Origin: Dehalococcoidia bacterium
GTDB taxonomy: Bacteria > Chloroflexota > Dehalococcoidia > Tepidiformales > Tepidiformaceae
Length of the DNA: 42,835 nt
Direction of reading: 5' to 3'
Assembly: GCA_009841435.1 (NCBI GenBank)
Contig: VXLW01000017.1
Location: 1-42,835 of the forward strand
Positions within the stretch are counted from its first letter, which is position 1, and each line of letters begins with the position of its first letter. The notes beneath the pieces are model-generated. The model ran no database searches and was not told the DNA's origin. It saw nothing but the letters and a program-made list of their open reading frames with translations. Below, piece by piece: positions 19,518-41,928 of this stretch. The translations under genes were made by a program, and so were the position numbers.

Positions 19518-20738
19518 CTACCAGAAGTTCAGGTAGTTGGCGGGGTCGAGGTACTGGCCGTTGTAGCGGATCTCGAAGTGGAGGTGCTCGCCGGTGCTGT
19601 AGCCGGTGGAGCCGGAGATGCCGAGGATGGTCTCGCCCTTCCTCACAGAGTCACCCCAGTTGACGATGATCTCGCGGAAGTGCGAGTAGAGGGTCTCCCA
19701 GCCGTCGCCGCAATCGACGATGACGTAAAAGCCGTAGCTGTAGGTGAGGTGCTCGACGCGCGACACCCAACCATCGCAGGCGGCGTACACGGATGAGGCG
19801 GGTTGAGACCCGAGGGCAAGGTCGATCCCCGTATGGATGCGGCCGCCCCCGCGGTCGGTCCCGAAGAGGTCGCTGACGAAGTCCCAGGACGCCAGGGGCA
19901 GACCGAAACGGCCGGGGGAAACCGGCGGCGGCGGGGTAATGATCCACCCGTTGGGGCTGCGCACGGGGGGCGGCTTGAGCCTGGCGTTGGGAAGGAGGAT
20001 GTATTCGCCGGGCTGGATGTCGTCGCCACTGAGGAGATTATTTGGGCGGTGGTTGAGGACGTCGTCGATGGTGACATCAAGGTGCTTGTCGATGATGCCG
20101 CTGAGCGTCTCGGCGTGGCCGACGAGGTAGAGAATGCCATGAACGCTGCCCTGAGGCACGAGGATCTTCTGGCCGACGGGGATGTAGTCGCCTTCGACCA
20201 CCTCGGCGTTGTTGAGCAGGATGTTATCGACGGTTGTGTCGTAGGTCTCGGCGATCTCGCCGAGGGTGTCTCCCCCGCGAACCTCGTAGATGACGTAGGG
20301 CTCCTCGGGGTCGATCTGGTCGGTCAGCGCGCGGACGTCGTAGCCGGCATCCTGGCCGGCGGCGGTGGCGCGGCCGACGCTATCGGAAATGGTCTCCCCT
20401 TCGGCCACGGGGTTGGTGGGGCGAAGCGGGACCTGGGGCGTGGCGAGCGCGGCCCTGAGGGGGGACTCGACGGTGCCATGGCTGACGCCCGGGCGGAGGA
20501 ACGACTCGCCCGTGGGAGCAATAGCGCGCACGCCCGAGAGGGGAACAGGCGGGATGCTGGAGACCTGGGCCGCCTCGGTGTCGGTGACGAGCCGGGCGGT
20601 GAGGAGCGCGGCCAGCGCAGCGATCCCGATCAGGAGCAGGTGGAGACCGGCGCGGAGGGGGAGATGACCGTGAGCGTGAGAGCGGGCGCGCGGAGAAGAG
20701 CGCCCATACAGGAGGCCCAGGAGCCAATCCCTCAGCAC
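19518..20738 (-). CDS. LysM-domain M23 family metallopeptidase
   Basis: 406 residues. A membrane anchor or uncleaved signal lies at about residues 30-50, followed by a low-complexity region. There are two LysM domains (VRGGDTLGEIAETYDTTVDN and the one starting VGHAETLSGIIDKH), a proline-rich linker, and a C-terminal lysostaphin-like peptidase. The zinc motifs are HTGIDLAL and HLHFEIR, with a third His in the segment LYSHFREI. Such proteins cut peptide cross-links of peptidoglycan, or activate other hydrolases when degenerate; here the metal ligands are all present. The start is a GTG at 20738 with GGAG close by. It is convergent to the sortase genes. Confidence 0.9.
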   Translation of the reverse strand: MLRDWLLGLLYGRSSPRARSHAHGHLPLRAGLHLLLIGIAALAALLTARLVTDTEAAQVSSIPPVPLSGVRAIAPTGESFLRPGVSHGTVESPLRAALATPQVPLRPTNPVAEGETISDSVGRATAAGQDAGYDVRALTDQIDPEEPYVIYEVRGGDTLGEIAETYDTTVDNILLNNAEVVEGDYIPVGQKILVPQGSVHGILYLVGHAETLSGIIDKHLDVTIDDVLNHRPNNLLSGDDIQPGEYILLPNARLKPPPVRSPNGWIITPPPPVSPGRFGLPLASWDFVSDLFGTDRGGGRIHTGIDLALGSQPASSVYAACDGWVSRVEHLTYSYGFYVIVDCGDGWETLYSHFREIIVNWGDSVRKGETILGISGSTGYSTGEHLHFEIRYNGQYLDPANYLNFW

Positions 20739-23751: not shown

Positions 23752-24504
23752 ATGGCCGTGGAGCAGCCCACCCAACCGACTCTCGGCGACCTGATCTACG
23801 ACAAGCTCTTCCACAACTACGTGTGGCGGTCGATCTTCCGCACGGGTTACCCGAACACGCCGCGCAACCAGATGCTGGTGGTCGCGACGAACGTGTTCCT
23901 CCACCTGCACCCGACCCGTATCCACCGCACGCACGTGAAGATCACGCACACCTACTGCCTCGGCGGGCTAACTTTCTTCATGTTCCTGGGGCTGACCGTG
24001 ACGGGCATCCTGCTGATGTTCTATTACGTGCCCAGCGTGGACCGGGCGTACCTGGACATCCAGAACATCCAGACGAACGTGCAGTTCGGGCAGCTGATGC
24101 GGAACATGCACCGCTGGATGGCGCACGCGATGGTGATCCTCGTGTTCCTGCACATGCTGCGGGTCTTCTATACGGGGGCCTATAAGCCACCGCGCGAATT
24201 CAACTGGGTGGTGGGCGTTGTCCTGCTGGTGCTCACCTTCCTCCTGAGCTTCACCGGTTACCTGCTGCCGTGGGACCAGCTGGCATTCTGGGCAATCACG
24301 GTCGGCACGAACATCGCCGGCTCGGCGCCGGTGCTGGGCCCGAAGACGCGCTTCTGGCTGCTCGGCGGCTTCGAGGTGGGTCCGGACGCGCTGATTCGCT
24401 TCTACACACTGCACGTCATCGGCCTGCCCCTGCTGGCAGCAATCTTCATGGCCGTGCACTTCTGGCGGATTCGCCGGGATGGCGGCCTGGCGCGGCCGCT
24501 GTAG
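23752..24504 (+). CDS. Cytochrome b6-type subunit of a quinol:cytochrome c reductase
   Basis: 250 residues with four membrane helices, equal to the N-terminal half of mitochondrial cytochrome b (PetB/QcrB type). Two histidine pairs for the b hemes are visible: MHRW with LHMLRVF, and LHVIGLP with VHFWRIRR. Cys69 in THTYCLGG aligns by eye with the cysteine of PetB and Bacillus QcrB that binds the extra heme c_i covalently. The complex oxidises menaquinol and passes electrons to the Rieske protein while moving protons. It is the second gene of the operon; subunit IV follows after 19 bases. Confidence 0.94.
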
Positions 24505-24523: not shown

Positions 24524-25414
24524 ATGGCAACCGTCGTCGTCGCCCGGCCGGCCGCCCGACCCACTCCTCGCGCTCGCGACGAGGAGGTGCTGGTCTGGCC
24601 CGACCTGGTCTTCGTCGAGTTCATCTCGGCGATGCTGTTCACGGTCCTGCTGTTCCTGCTCTCGTACCTGATGAACGCGCCGCTCCTGGACGAGGCGAAC
24701 GCGAATGTCACGAACGACCCGGCGAAGGCGCCGTGGTACCTGCTGAACCTGCAGGAGCTGCTGCTGCACATGAACGCGGCGCTGGCAGGCATCGTGGTGC
24801 CGACCGTGTGGCTGATCATCCTGATAGTCTTCCCGTACTTCGACCGCTCCACGGACGGACAGGGGCGCTGGTTCGCCGACGTGAACTCGGTGAAGAACAC
24901 CGTGGTCTCACTCAACGTGGGCCTGTGGGGCACGCTGGCGCTCATCATCTGGAACTCGGGCAAGGCGGCGCTCTGGGCCAAGGACTGGTTCGGCTTCTCC
25001 GGCGGCAGCACGCTCGCGTTCCTCGAGCGCTCGGCGGCGCTGAAGGACCCCTCGGTGGTGCCCTGGCCCGGCTGGGCGGACTCGATTCCGTACCTGTGGT
25101 TCAACCTGAAGATCCTGGACGAAGGTCCGGGGGCAGGTGTGACGACCTTCCAGAAGATCGACCTGCCCACGCTGCTGGTGGACATCGGTATCCCAACGGG
25201 ATTCATGGTCGGGTTCTCGTGCCTGCTCATCTTCTTCTTCTGGAAGATCAACTGGGTGCATACACGCCGGGACGCGCTGATCACGCTGATGAGCGGGTTC
25301 GTGGGCGTCTTCCTGATGTTGACGGTTATCGGTACGGCCTTCCGCGGGCCCGGCCAGGATCTGATCTGGCCGTGGGACCTGCGCACGCTCGAAGGCATCC
25401 CGGGGCAGGAGTAG
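24524..25414 (+). CDS. Cytochrome b C-terminal/subunit IV-like protein
   Basis: 296 residues, longer than cyanobacterial PetD (about 160). An N-terminal helix precedes the quinol-site segment DPAKAPWYLLNLQELL, where APWY (residues 69-72) stands in place of the canonical PEWY; the glutamate is absent, as in several bacterial complexes with split cytochrome b. Helices follow at about 85-105 (VVPTVWLIILIVFPYF), 130-150, 220-245 and 255-275. The extra C-terminal helices may replace a cytochrome-bearing domain or contact the other subunits. It is placed between cytochrome b6 and the Rieske gene, so the assignment as the second half of cytochrome b is sound. Confidence 0.88.
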   Translation: MATVVVARPAARPTPRARDEEVLVWPDLVFVEFISAMLFTVLLFLLSYLMNAPLLDEANANVTNDPAKAPWYLLNLQELLLHMNAALAGIVVPTVWLIILIVFPYFDRSTDGQGRWFADVNSVKNTVVSLNVGLWGTLALIIWNSGKAALWAKDWFGFSGGSTLAFLERSAALKDPSVVPWPGWADSIPYLWFNLKILDEGPGAGVTTFQKIDLPTLLVDIGIPTGFMVGFSCLLIFFFWKINWVHTRRDALITLMSGFVGVFLMLTVIGTAFRGPGQDLIWPWDLRTLEGIPGQE

Positions 25415-25421
25415 GGATCGG

Positions 25422-26015
25422 ATGGCAGCGCAACGGGTAGAGCAAGCACGGCAGGCGGAGGCGCGCAAGGTCTCGCGGCGCTCGTTCATGCGGGTGAGCG
25501 CGTTCGCCGGGCTGACCCTCGCCCTGGGCGCGTTCAGCGCGTTCTTCCTGGGCTTCTTCAATCTGCGCAGCCCGCAGGGCTTCGGACGGCCGGTGACGGT
25601 TCCCAAGATCCAGATCCCGGAGCCGGGCGCCGAGCCCGTCCGCATCACCGAGGGCAAGTTCTGGCTGGTGAACCTGGACGGTAACGAAGGCGACGTGCTC
25701 GACCAGGGAGGCACGGGAGGCCTGCTGGCCCTCTACTGGAAGTGCCCCCACCTCGGCTGCACCGTCCCCTGGCGGGGCGACTTCGACGGGGCGGAGGTGG
25801 CCTTCCCCGGCATCCAGGGGTGGTTCCGCTGCCCCTGCCACGGCTCAACGTATTCGCGCGCGGGCGTAAGGGTCTTCGGACCGGCGCCTCGCCCGCTCGA
25901 CACGTTCCTGCTGACGACCAATCCCGACGGCTCGGTCACGGTGAACACACGCGGCCTGACGCTCGGCGGCGGCGAGAATCCCAATCCGAAGCGGGCGGTT
26001 CCCTACAGTGGCTAG
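25422..26015 (+). CDS. Rieske [2Fe-2S] protein
   Basis: 197 residues. The N-terminus has a Tat-type signal (SRRSFMRVSAF) and a membrane helix, as in Rieske proteins that stay anchored by an uncleaved signal. Cluster ligands by family alignment are Cys108 and His110 in CPHLGC and Cys137 and His140 in CPCHGS, with a disulfide between Cys113 and Cys139. It takes one electron from quinol and passes it to the c-type or copper carrier. The start ATG at 25422 is seven bases after the previous stop. The next gene, 18 bases on, is the probable electron acceptor. Confidence 0.95.
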   Translation: MAAQRVEQARQAEARKVSRRSFMRVSAFAGLTLALGAFSAFFLGFFNLRSPQGFGRPVTVPKIQIPEPGAEPVRITEGKFWLVNLDGNEGDVLDQGGTGGLLALYWKCPHLGCTVPWRGDFDGAEVAFPGIQGWFRCPCHGSTYSRAGVRVFGPAPRPLDTFLLTTNPDGSVTVNTRGLTLGGGENPNPKRAVPYSG

Positions 26016-26033: not shown

Positions 26034-27773
26034 TTGAACACCCAGCGCCAAATCTTCCTGATCGTGGTGCTGCTGTTTATCAGCGTGGCGGGCTGCGCCG
26101 CGTATACGGCGATCGACCTGCCCATCCGAGCGGAGCGGCAGGCGGACTTCTTCCAGGCTGAGTCGATCGAGCGCGGGGCGCTGCTCTACGCGAACAACTG
26201 CCGCACCTGCCACGGCATCCGGGGCGAGGGCGGGGTGGGCCTGACGCTGAACAAGGCCGCGTTCCGGAACCAGGAGCCGCTGGCGCTCTCGCAGAACCAG
26301 GATCTGATCAGGCGCACGCTGATCTGCGGGCGGGCGGGCACGCTCATGCCGGCCTGGCTCGACTCGAACGGCGGCAGCCTGACGGCGAACCAGATCGAGC
26401 ACCTCGTTCGGCTGCTGACCGCGCCGCTGGAGGGAGAAACGTTCGACGCGAACGGCAATCCGACGAACCACGGCTGGCTGGCGGCGGTCGAGTTCGCCCA
26501 TAACCTGAACCACGAGTCGTCGGCCTCGGTGACGGGGGACACGCTGCCCCTGATCGCGGCGGCGCACGGCATCGGGGCGAACGAGGTCGAGGGCGCCATC
26601 CTCATCGCCGAGCTGAACGGGCTGACCTACGCGGTCGACGGGAGCGGGAACTTCTACCTGCCGTACTCCGGCGACGACGAGGCCCTGATGCTGAACCCGT
26701 CCGCGGACACCATCGCGACGGGGCTGCTTCCGGGGCAAACGCTGCGCTTGCCGGAAGGCGCGTCCTACCGCGTGAGCGCGGGAGACACGCTGGGGAGCAT
26801 CGCGGAGCGGCACGGCATCACGCCCTCGCAGATCCGCTCGCTAAACCCGTTGCTGCTGTCGATCGTAGGCGACATCGCCGACGACACGCCGCTGACGGGC
26901 GAGCGCAAGCTGCTCCTGCCTGACGGCACGTCCTACACCGCACAGGCGGGCGATACGCTCCTCTCCATCGCGGAAGCGCACGACATCCCCGTGCTGGCGC
27001 TCGCGGAGGACAACGAACTCGCCGAGGACGCCGCCATCGCGGAAGGCACGGAACTCACGCTGAGGGACGGCACGGGCTACATCGTGCAGTTCGGCGACAC
27101 GGTTCTCTCCATCGCCAGCGCCCATGGCCTGAGCGAAAGCACGGTGCGGTCGCTCAACGAGCTGGGCTCGGGCGAAGAGGTCTCGACCGAAGTCTGGATC
27201 GCGCTCCCGCCGATCAACGCCTACGTGGTGGCAGGCGCCGACCTGGCCCAGGTAGCCTCGGGCTTCGGCAACGTGACGGCCGCCTCATTGGGTGAGGCGA
27301 ATGGCCTCGCAGCGGACGCGGTCGTGCCCATCGGCAAGTCGCTCCACTTCCCCGCCGACGCGTGGGGGGCGGCGCCATCGGACGAGATCAACCCGGGCAC
27401 GGCGTGCGTCGAGCACACCGTCTCGACGAGCGCGTTCAACACGATCAGCGGCGCGGACCCGATCGTCATCGACGAGCCGAACGCGGTTTCGACGGACGTG
27501 CTCATCCTCGCGAACGACAACGACTGGACGGTGGTGGCCGACGGGGTAGCCGGCGAGCCGAACCGGACGGGCGTGAAGGTCGCCGTGGGAACCACGGTGA
27601 CGTTCGAGAACGTCGTGGGGCTGCACAACATCGAGATCGACGGTCAGCAGCAGGGCGACGACTTCGAGGGTGTGGGCGTCACGCGGACGTTCACGTTCGA
27701 TGCGCCGGGCGAGTACCGCATCACCTGCAGCTACCACCCGGACATGCTGGCGGTGGTGTTCGTCACCGAATAG
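26034..27773 (+). CDS. Lipoprotein fusing cytochrome c, LysM repeats and a blue-copper domain
   Basis: 579 residues. A lipoprotein signal ends at Cys21 (VAGC). A monoheme cytochrome c domain follows, with C56-x-x-C59-H60 and probable axial Met105 (TLMPAW). Next come four readable LysM repeats (about 244-297, 299-345, 348-394, 396-442; GDTLGSIAERHGI, GDTLLSIAEAHDI, GDTVLSIASAHGL) and a weaker one at about 163-212. A cupredoxin domain closes the chain with copper ligands His531, Cys565, His568 and Met571 (CSYHPDM, amicyanin-like spacing). The start is TTG with GGAGGA four bases before it. It is the last gene of the reductase operon and so probably the electron acceptor, carrying electrons from the membrane through the wall layer. 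I know of no named family with this order. Confidence 0.9.
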   Translation: MNTQRQIFLIVVLLFISVAGCAAYTAIDLPIRAERQADFFQAESIERGALLYANNCRTCHGIRGEGGVGLTLNKAAFRNQEPLALSQNQDLIRRTLICGRAGTLMPAWLDSNGGSLTANQIEHLVRLLTAPLEGETFDANGNPTNHGWLAAVEFAHNLNHESSASVTGDTLPLIAAAHGIGANEVEGAILIAELNGLTYAVDGSGNFYLPYSGDDEALMLNPSADTIATGLLPGQTLRLPEGASYRVSAGDTLGSIAERHGITPSQIRSLNPLLLSIVGDIADDTPLTGERKLLLPDGTSYTAQAGDTLLSIAEAHDIPVLALAEDNELAEDAAIAEGTELTLRDGTGYIVQFGDTVLSIASAHGLSESTVRSLNELGSGEEVSTEVWIALPPINAYVVAGADLAQVASGFGNVTAASLGEANGLAADAVVPIGKSLHFPADAWGAAPSDEINPGTACVEHTVSTSAFNTISGADPIVIDEPNAVSTDVLILANDNDWTVVADGVAGEPNRTGVKVAVGTTVTFENVVGLHNIEIDGQQQGDDFEGVGVTRTFTFDAPGEYRITCSYHPDMLAVVFVTE

Positions 27774-40980: not shown

Positions 40981-41928
40981 CTAGTTCGGGTTCGGGAGCC
41001 GCGACCACTCGTCCTGCGTCTCGAAGAGGAGGTCGTGCATCTCCCAGAACTTGCCCTGCTCCCCGGCGCACTCGGCAGCAACGTGGGCGGTGGGGGCGTT
41101 CGGGTGGAGCTGCGTGATGGGGAAGTGGAGGAAGACGAGCGCCACGTCGTCGCCGATCTGCCGCTCGATTTCGGGAAGGGTGTTCAGGTACCAGCGCTGA
41201 CAGAAGGGACACTGGAAGTCGCTGAACTCCACGATGACGACAGCAGCGTCGGGGCTGCCCTTGATGGGCGCGTTCGAGAAGTCCGGGGCCCGGTCGAGGA
41301 TGGCGAAAGCGGGGGGTTCGCGGTTGGCGAGCACCTGGATGGACTCGGAGTAATGCTCAAGCGAGGTGGGGCTGCCCGCGAGTTCGGCGGCGATGACCTC
41401 CGCGAAGATGGCCGAGGGCTGGGCGCCCGAGATGTACTTGTTGTTCACGAAGAAGGCAGGCGTGCCGTTCACGCCGAGGTCGAGGCCTCGCTGGAGCTGG
41501 TCGCCCACGGTCTCCAACCGAGAGTTGTCACTCAGGCACTCCGCGAAGGCCGTGGCGTCGAGGTCGAGGGCGGCGGCGTAGCCCTCCAGTGTCCCGCGGA
41601 GGGTGACCGGCTCGGGTGCGGCGGCGGGTTGGGCGGCTTCGGCGGCGGCCCGCATGTCCTCGGATGCGATGGCGAGGGACTCGACCGCCTCGGACAGAGA
41701 CTCCAGGGCAGGGCCGATGGGCTCGGCGGGCGGCGGGTCGTCGTCCAGCAGGATGATCGTGACGACGATGGCGGCAGCGCCGATGAGCACTGCGACCGGA
41801 GTCAGAAAATAGGGCCACAGCGGAGGACGAACGGTCCTGCGAGGGGACTGCGGGGGAGCCTCGAACGCCGGTTCCGCCGGCTGCTCCGGGGGAGGGGTGC
41901 TCTCGGGTTCGGTGGGGGGCTCGGTCAC
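40981..41928 (-). CDS. Membrane-anchored DsbA-type thioredoxin-fold protein with permuted halves
   Basis: 315 residues. The first 37 are Pro/Glu-rich, a membrane helix follows (about 38-61), then a helical stretch (64-104). Residues 108-183 equal the C-terminal half of ordinary DsbA/DSBA-like oxidoreductases: GTLEGYAAALDLD, FAECL and the cis-proline loop GVNGTPAFFVNNKYISGAQP (Pro157). Residues about 214-311 equal the N-terminal half: DFSNAPIKGSPDAAVVIVEF, the active site CPFC (Cys240, Cys243) and CAGEQGKFWEMHDLLFETQ. The order is therefore reversed, and the protein stops where the second half would normally follow. All parts of one domain seem present once. It would act outside the membrane on disulfides. 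RuvA is encoded 46 bases upstream on the same strand. Confidence 0.88.
   Translation of the reverse strand: MTEPPTEPESTPPPEQPAEPAFEAPPQSPRRTVRPPLWPYFLTPVAVLIGAAAIVVTIILLDDDPPPAEPIGPALESLSEAVESLAIASEDMRAAAEAAQPAAAPEPVTLRGTLEGYAAALDLDATAFAECLSDNSRLETVGDQLQRGLDLGVNGTPAFFVNNKYISGAQPSAIFAEVIAAELAGSPTSLEHYSESIQVLANREPPAFAILDRAPDFSNAPIKGSPDAAVVIVEFSDFQCPFCQRWYLNTLPEIERQIGDDVALVFLHFPITQLHPNAPTAHVAAECAGEQGKFWEMHDLLFETQDEWSRLPNPN

Follow-up and report, generated by a model that had tools for sequence, protein, structure and literature searches.

How electrons pass through a single protein that carries a heme site, a row of LysM repeats and a blue-copper domain, and what the repeats do between the two redox sites, is the question raised by one gene in contig VXLW01000017.1 (GCA_009841435.1) of a Dehalococcoidia bacterium of the family Tepidiformaceae, Chloroflexota. 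The stretch of DNA analysed, 42,835 nt, is referred to as the window; its coordinates are on the + strand unless stated otherwise. The gene (26034..27773) translates from a TTG start into 579 amino acids without an internal stop. Translation, Pfam searches and a family alignment gave the domain order, from the N- to the C-terminus, as an anchor with a lipobox, a single heme site (CxxCH), the LysM array and a cupredoxin (type-1 copper) domain. We consider it probable, with some reserve, that the protein serves a bc-type complex as its cytochrome c subunit, that its tethered copper is a second carrier on a path from the Rieske protein through heme c and copper to CuA with no free carrier, and that the LysM array, as a loop between Cys98 and Cys458, anchors the complex to peptidoglycan. 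We infer the assembly into the complex, the disulfide, the binding of peptidoglycan, and the direction and partner of electron flow.

The residues named in the original prediction (Cys21, C56-x-x-C59-H60, H531, C565, H568 and M571) were all read in the translation, and both redox sites are intact in the sequence of one chain. A frame error or a joining of two genes was ruled out: 30 full-length copies from 30 genomes of the family aligned end to end, all with the same domain order, and the chain is under purifying selection. In five pairwise comparisons within the genus, dN/dS was 0.03-0.06 for the cytochrome part, 0.10-0.32 for the LysM part, the fastest-evolving part of the chain, and 0.03-0.14 for the linker and copper part. 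The alignment omits the copies of G011, G016, G026, G031 and G035 (contig ends or split matches); that of G198 was found later. The class search (E <= 1e-12) matched the fusion protein in 36 of the 38 family genomes listed, in some only partially at contig ends, and G013 (81% complete) and G349 (72%) gave no fusion match at this threshold. The protein is present in 17 of 18 family genera. Its AlphaFold model had a mean pLDDT of 82.7 and a pTM of 0.60. One Chloroflexota family appears to have a complex III subunit that joins a heme protein, a row of LysM repeats and a blue-copper carrier.

The N-terminal hydrophobic anchor (residues 1-24; 26034..26105) contains the lipobox VAGC at residues 18-21. 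Lipidation of Cys21 is possible because Lgt and LspA were both matched over cut-off in the window's genome, which together with the lipobox marks the protein as a candidate lipoprotein of bacterial type; Lgt was matched in 58/60 relatives and LspA in 53/60. A cysteine stands at this place in all 30 family copies and in only three of 65 class-level proteins (L040, L117 and L144), among which a hydrophobic N-terminus is kept. Lipidation does not define the protein. The cytochrome c domain (residues 45-130; 26166..26423) was matched over cut-off by two class I cytochrome c models, PF13442 (Cytochrome_CBB3; 31.5 bits, cut-off 27) and PF00034 (25.2 bits, cut-off 21.3). It holds the CxxCH heme site C56-H60 (26199-26213) and a likely Met ligand, M105 (26346-26348), which is conserved in at least 90% of family copies.

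Three genes of bc/b6f type adjoin the fusion gene, in the order that had been predicted; Pfam and the family loci agree on it. They encode a cytochrome b6-type subunit (23752..24504; PF00033, 165.9 bits), a subunit IV-like protein (24524..25414), whose PF00032 match of 20.0 bits is just under the cut-off of 20.7 and which has the same place after b6 in relatives, and a Rieske iron-sulfur protein (25422..26015; PF00355, 31.5 bits, cut-off 20.3) with the motifs CPHLGC and CPCHGS in its translation. The Rieske gene lies directly upstream in all 30 family copies aligned, and 103 of the 106 loci of the tree described below have one upstream in the same orientation. The fusion gene most probably encodes the cytochrome subunit of a complex of bc type. 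The b6 gene also matched an NCBIfam model labelled 'selenite/tellurite reduction operon ExtP' over cut-off (300.1 bits, cut-off 290), yet it lies in a Rieske operon; the ExtP name may have been propagated too widely.

PF01476 (LysM) matched the window protein with 104.3 bits (cut-off 20.9) in three stretches. These correspond to three well-formed repeats (residues 243-391; 26760..27206), which a local family HMM matched at 247-274, 301-336 and 349-384 and in which pLDDT was mostly above 90. They are preceded by a hybrid first unit (residues 163-238; 26520..26747), recognized by an alignment gap relative to L010 and L011 and by a fourth local HMM match at 167-186. This unit, which six close relatives share, has the look of two units fused through an internal deletion; two copies from the same genus, L010 and L011, retain the longer form in the alignment. 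By our reading, a last divergent LysM-like unit (residues 392-440; 27207..27353) follows, which is helix-helix-strand in the model and gave no local HMM match. The count is thus three by Pfam, four by the local HMM, and four beta-alpha-alpha-beta units plus the hybrid unit by reading model and alignment; 'four or five', as first proposed, was a fair count. In the AlphaFold model the LysM units (about 240-440) are predicted with confidence, and the Foldseek matches include LysM structures. All 30 family copies matched LysM in Pfam (E <= 0.01), and copy number varies, with two to four local HMM matches per protein.

The copper domain (residues 487-578; 27492..27767) was delimited by the family alignment, the model and Foldseek. 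Its ligand codons are at 27624-27626 (H531), 27726-27728 (C565), 27735-27737 (H568) and 27744-27746 (M571). H531, C565 and H568 are invariant in the 30 family copies, and M571 is present in 29. The remaining copy, L050:4477-6399 (-), has Gln in place of the ligand Met, a substitution familiar from stellacyanin-type sites. PF00127 (Copper-bind) stayed below its cut-off in the window protein (15.7 bits, cut-off 21.2) and matched 5/30 family copies at E <= 0.01. The model has cupredoxin strands at about 487-578, with mean pLDDT of 82-94 in 10-residue blocks from 481 on, and Foldseek matched plastocyanin 7pcy (E 3.5e-5, target TM-score 0.66) as well as amicyanin. Model and Foldseek thus support a cupredoxin fold in which the His, Cys, His and Met ligands of a type-1 site are intact; metal binding is predicted. 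We take the C-x2-H-x2-M spacing of the site to be that of amicyanin. PDB sequence matches include CuA domains of oxidase subunit II; a CuA identity was excluded by the single Cys in the ligand loop CSYHPDM.

Two further cysteines bear on how the array sits in the chain. Cys98 (26325..26327) lies just before the Met-ligand loop and Cys458 (27405..27407) after the LysM array. A motif search found the pair in 30/30 family copies and in 58/65 class proteins. The other seven class proteins are L141 (pair displaced by an extra repeat), L129 (contig end) and L044-L048 (no motif). In 22 proteins from other classes the motif gave no match; copper-bearing L173, L174 and L177 among them have a pair at similar spacing, which the motif misses as it misses the pair of L141 (176/316, read in sequence). 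Cysteines outside the heme and copper sites number two in 29 of 30 family copies. L025 counts one, which we think is an artefact because the copper regex absorbed the second cysteine. The class proteins (65) have two in 55 cases, four in 4, none in 4 and one in 2, and those of other classes (22) have none in 17 and two in 5, so that nearly all counts are even. Five proteins of family f21 that lack a second carrier end 4-36 residues past the second cysteine, and therefore this cysteine belongs to the cytochrome domain.

From these patterns, C98 and C458 are probably joined by a disulfide, which would make the array a closed loop within the cytochrome domain rather than a linear spacer between heme and copper. 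This would suggest that the ends of the array meet and that the heme and copper domains are then joined by about 30 residues. Co-occurrence of the cysteines is suggestive and not proof, since the pair may reflect one ancestral gain; in the model, pLDDT falls below 50 in two stretches, 100-114 and 447-475, which include or adjoin these cysteines. Disulfide formation outside the cytoplasm is plausible because a DsbA-like (Thioredoxin_4) protein is encoded in the window (40981-41928, - strand).

The number of residues between the two cysteines ranges from 65 to 511 in the class and from 300 to 422 in the family. Members of families f66, f34, f59, f17, f53 and f68 carry another repeat at this site, approximately V-x-R-G-x-x-G-T-x(4)-H-x-x-G. 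It occurs in L101-L108, L111, L119, L136-L139 and others, in proteins of up to 757 amino acids, and no Pfam model matched it over cut-off in the repeat-bearing proteins among the ten that were scanned singly. In L141:554-1861 (-), of family f50, one repeat unit also lies between the heme site and the Met loop, and the cysteine pair is kept. The AlphaFold model of L101 had a mean pLDDT of 61.7, with a better-modelled stretch at about 300-450 that is mostly strand; its Foldseek list consists of copper proteins, which we read as reflecting the C-terminal domain.

Searches outside the family showed how the rest of the chain varies. The class search matched 154/393 genomes (E <= 1e-12); for genomes outside the family it was mainly the cytochrome domain that gave the match. 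The phylum search matched 152/400 genomes (E <= 1e-10), some by LysM or copper positions alone; among the matches listed, these are located elsewhere than the cytochrome matches or in another reading frame. Architecture was read in 87 non-family homologues (65 from the class, 22 from other classes), a non-random set picked from the listed matches. The local LysM HMM matched none of these 87. In Pfam scans of 78 class and phylum homologues, LysM was not among the 25 listed of 32 families, and each remaining family matched at most one protein. Among the relatives scanned, LysM at this locus was found only in this family.

Two to four hemes occur in L044-L048, in 10/18 f2 proteins, in L133 (f21) and in 18/22 proteins from other classes. 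In the remaining homologues one copper motif is commonest, and L040 and L117 have two. Pfam SoxE matched 12 of the 78 scanned homologues at E <= 0.01, not all over cut-off. Five of six f21 proteins read have no second carrier; for one of them, L135, a cytochrome c gene of its own, with lipoprotein-like features, begins 123 bp downstream, and at the other four loci a search of 1.5 kb on the gene's strand revealed no ORF bearing a heme or copper motif. A quick tree was built from the Rieske protein and the cytochrome core with 106 rows (19 of the 30 family copies and the 87 others). It implies at least 10 changes of second-module state, 6 with f2 counted alone; support is SH-aLRT only, many inner branches are weak, and L129 and L141 were given no state. 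L143 (copper) and L157 (heme) are sisters with support 99. We read these sequences as pointing to a second electron carrier that is exchangeable at this locus. In families f34, f59 and f32 the fusion gene is followed directly by a further small gene, for a cupredoxin whose start resembles that of a lipoprotein (L104:2233-2664 (-), L106:3547-4107 (+) and L116:2419-2841 (-)).

For the role of the LysM array, a peptidoglycan anchor is our preferred reading. Closed by the C98-C458 disulfide, the loop would fasten the complex to peptidoglycan by its outer face. The window encodes a second LysM protein, an M23 peptidase on the opposite strand (19518-20738; LysM 41.9 bits, M23 89.1 bits), which points to a peptidoglycan wall. 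A MurG-type match in the window's genome covers positions 6-353 with 222.7 bits, below the equivalog cut-off of 250.25. Such near full-length matches occur in 36/36 family genomes searched. The marker is weak, because none of the 36 reaches the cut-off and all 14 control genomes, archaea included, match at E <= 0.001, 9 of them over cut-off. The window's family, with LysM and a MurG-type match, seems unlike the SAR202 clade that the available text describes.

The array might instead be spacer or bulk that binds no glycan and tunes the reach of, or the crowding around, the copper carrier, the array of other families doing likewise. We think this unlikely, with a sizeable chance left to it. A passive spacer is conceivable because the LysM part evolves fastest and varies in length; the wide range of lengths in class and family, the variable copy number, and the unrelated repeats that hold the same place in other families all fit it. 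Against it, LysM is kept in all 30 family copies, and with a C98-C458 disulfide the length of the array would leave the heme-to-copper distance unchanged.

For the electron path, an analogue is available. Actinobacterial diheme QcrC, as described in the available text of PMC8361435, links complexes III and IV where small c cytochromes are absent, and it is the closest working analogue of the fusion protein: it too is a cytochrome subunit that brings two carriers together in one chain of a quinol-oxidising complex. However, QcrC has two CxxCH sites and a heme as second carrier, whereas the window protein has one CxxCH and a copper site, with the LysM array between them. The NCBIfam QcrC model gave a weak match at residues 10-66 (25.5 bits, cut-off 200). 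By analogy with QcrC, as that source describes it, a path through Rieske protein, heme c, tethered copper and CuA would be the simplest. The Rieske protein would pass electrons to heme c (His60/Met105), heme c to the type-1 copper (H531, C565, H568, M571) on its short tether, and the copper to CuA of a heme-copper oxidase without a free carrier. The second carrier, a type-1 copper here, is a heme domain in many same-locus relatives.

The carriers and acceptors encoded in the genome are in keeping with this path. In all nine genomes of the genus PF00034 had one match over cut-off, the fusion ORF (G007 has a second, sub-cut-off match), and PF13442 had one match in 7/9, the window's genome included, and two in G005 and G007; Pfam may miss divergent or multiheme cytochromes, and the window's genome is 89.8% complete. 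This genome has one COX1 match. The products of its oxidase cluster are COX2, COX1, COX3 and a 416-aa cupredoxin protein; the CuA motif of COX2 is intact, and no cytochrome is fused to this subunit. The 416-aa protein, L100:7653-8903 (+), ends the cluster and has hydrophobic stretches and a Cupredoxin_1 match (33.5 bits, cut-off 27). It is a possible copper partner. Another locus of this genome has a small cupredoxin gene of its own, and the product of either gene could act between the fusion protein and CuA. The copper domain might feed the cox-operon cupredoxin protein, or another acceptor, instead of CuA directly. The position of the 416-aa protein after COX2-COX1-COX3 in the same genome favours this version, which we hold to be improbable while credible; the sequences gave no sign of direct pairing, and a copper-to-copper relay is hypothetical.

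Electrons taken from the Rieske protein, as the original prediction had it, fit the simplest reading; its wall-spanning outward passage is not supported, since the one COX1-type oxidase found in the window's genome, with CuA, fits an ordinary acceptor in the same membrane. A linear relay with the copper domain distal, delivering electrons outside the cell, would agree with the heme, LysM, copper order in one chain and with the N-terminal lipobox. We nevertheless regard it as very unlikely. The cysteine pair would turn the array into a side loop; one heme and one copper cannot tunnel across a wall-scale distance unless the copper domain moves; and a CuA-bearing oxidase is present in the window's genome. 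In addition, the fusion ORF is the only one with CxxCH among the 31 longest non-overlapping window ORFs of at least 150 aa, and Pfam scans of 20 further window ORFs turned up genes for metabolism, RNA and signalling, without a second cluster for electron transfer. There is likewise only a very small chance that host glycans, for instance sponge chitin, are the ligand of the LysM repeats, as a symbiosis trait: the isolate codes of several of seven named relatives look host-associated, perhaps from sponge metagenome bins, but the protein is present in all but one of the 18 family genera, and the family is by taxonomy Tepidiformaceae, whose type genus is a free-living hot-spring organism.

Returning to the preferred reading, in which a wall-anchored complex III subunit passes electrons to CuA through its own copper, we compared the protein with other known systems. 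Plastocyanin and amicyanin share fold and ligand pattern with the copper domain (Foldseek E about 1e-5 to 1e-4); they are free single-domain carriers, whereas this domain shares a chain with its probable electron donor. The Chloroflexota carrier auracyanin was matched by only one relative, L101, among the Foldseek matches listed. Membrane-anchored cytochrome cy, a carrier between complexes III and IV according to the available text of PMC8361435, is also anchored, but it is a separate heme protein without copper and without LysM. Nearest in locus are fourth subunits from other families of the class (L040-L043, L101-L157), either diheme or cytochrome c - cupredoxin proteins, which share the cytochrome domain and mostly the same cysteine pair. 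In these no LysM was found; they have another array or none, and their second module is a heme, one or two cupredoxins, SoxE-like, or absent.

A PDB sequence search gave no single structure that spans the chain, and no listed Pfam or NCBIfam model covers it whole. The proposal that no described family has this domain order held among the open-licence papers listed (titles and starts of abstracts) and solved structures, where none was found. We class the fusion as a variant of the known cytochrome subunit of bc complexes with an apparently undescribed domain order. A wider reading, which we offer tentatively and with somewhat less than even confidence, is that, in a large part of the class, complex III has a modular cytochrome subunit, a chassis whose disulfide loop takes up unrelated arrays and whose second carrier can be exchanged (heme, blue copper, sulfocyanin-like or none), and that in this family the loop bolts complex III to peptidoglycan.

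If the main reading is true, a carrier that is usually free has been fused into a respiratory complex, and heme and copper versions of it have been swapped repeatedly at one locus. These proteins would then form a natural series for how electron transfer tolerates the exchange and tethering of carriers. If the LysM loop binds the wall, Tepidiformaceae would have a direct physical link between complex III and peptidoglycan, which offers an idea of how respiratory complexes may be held in place.
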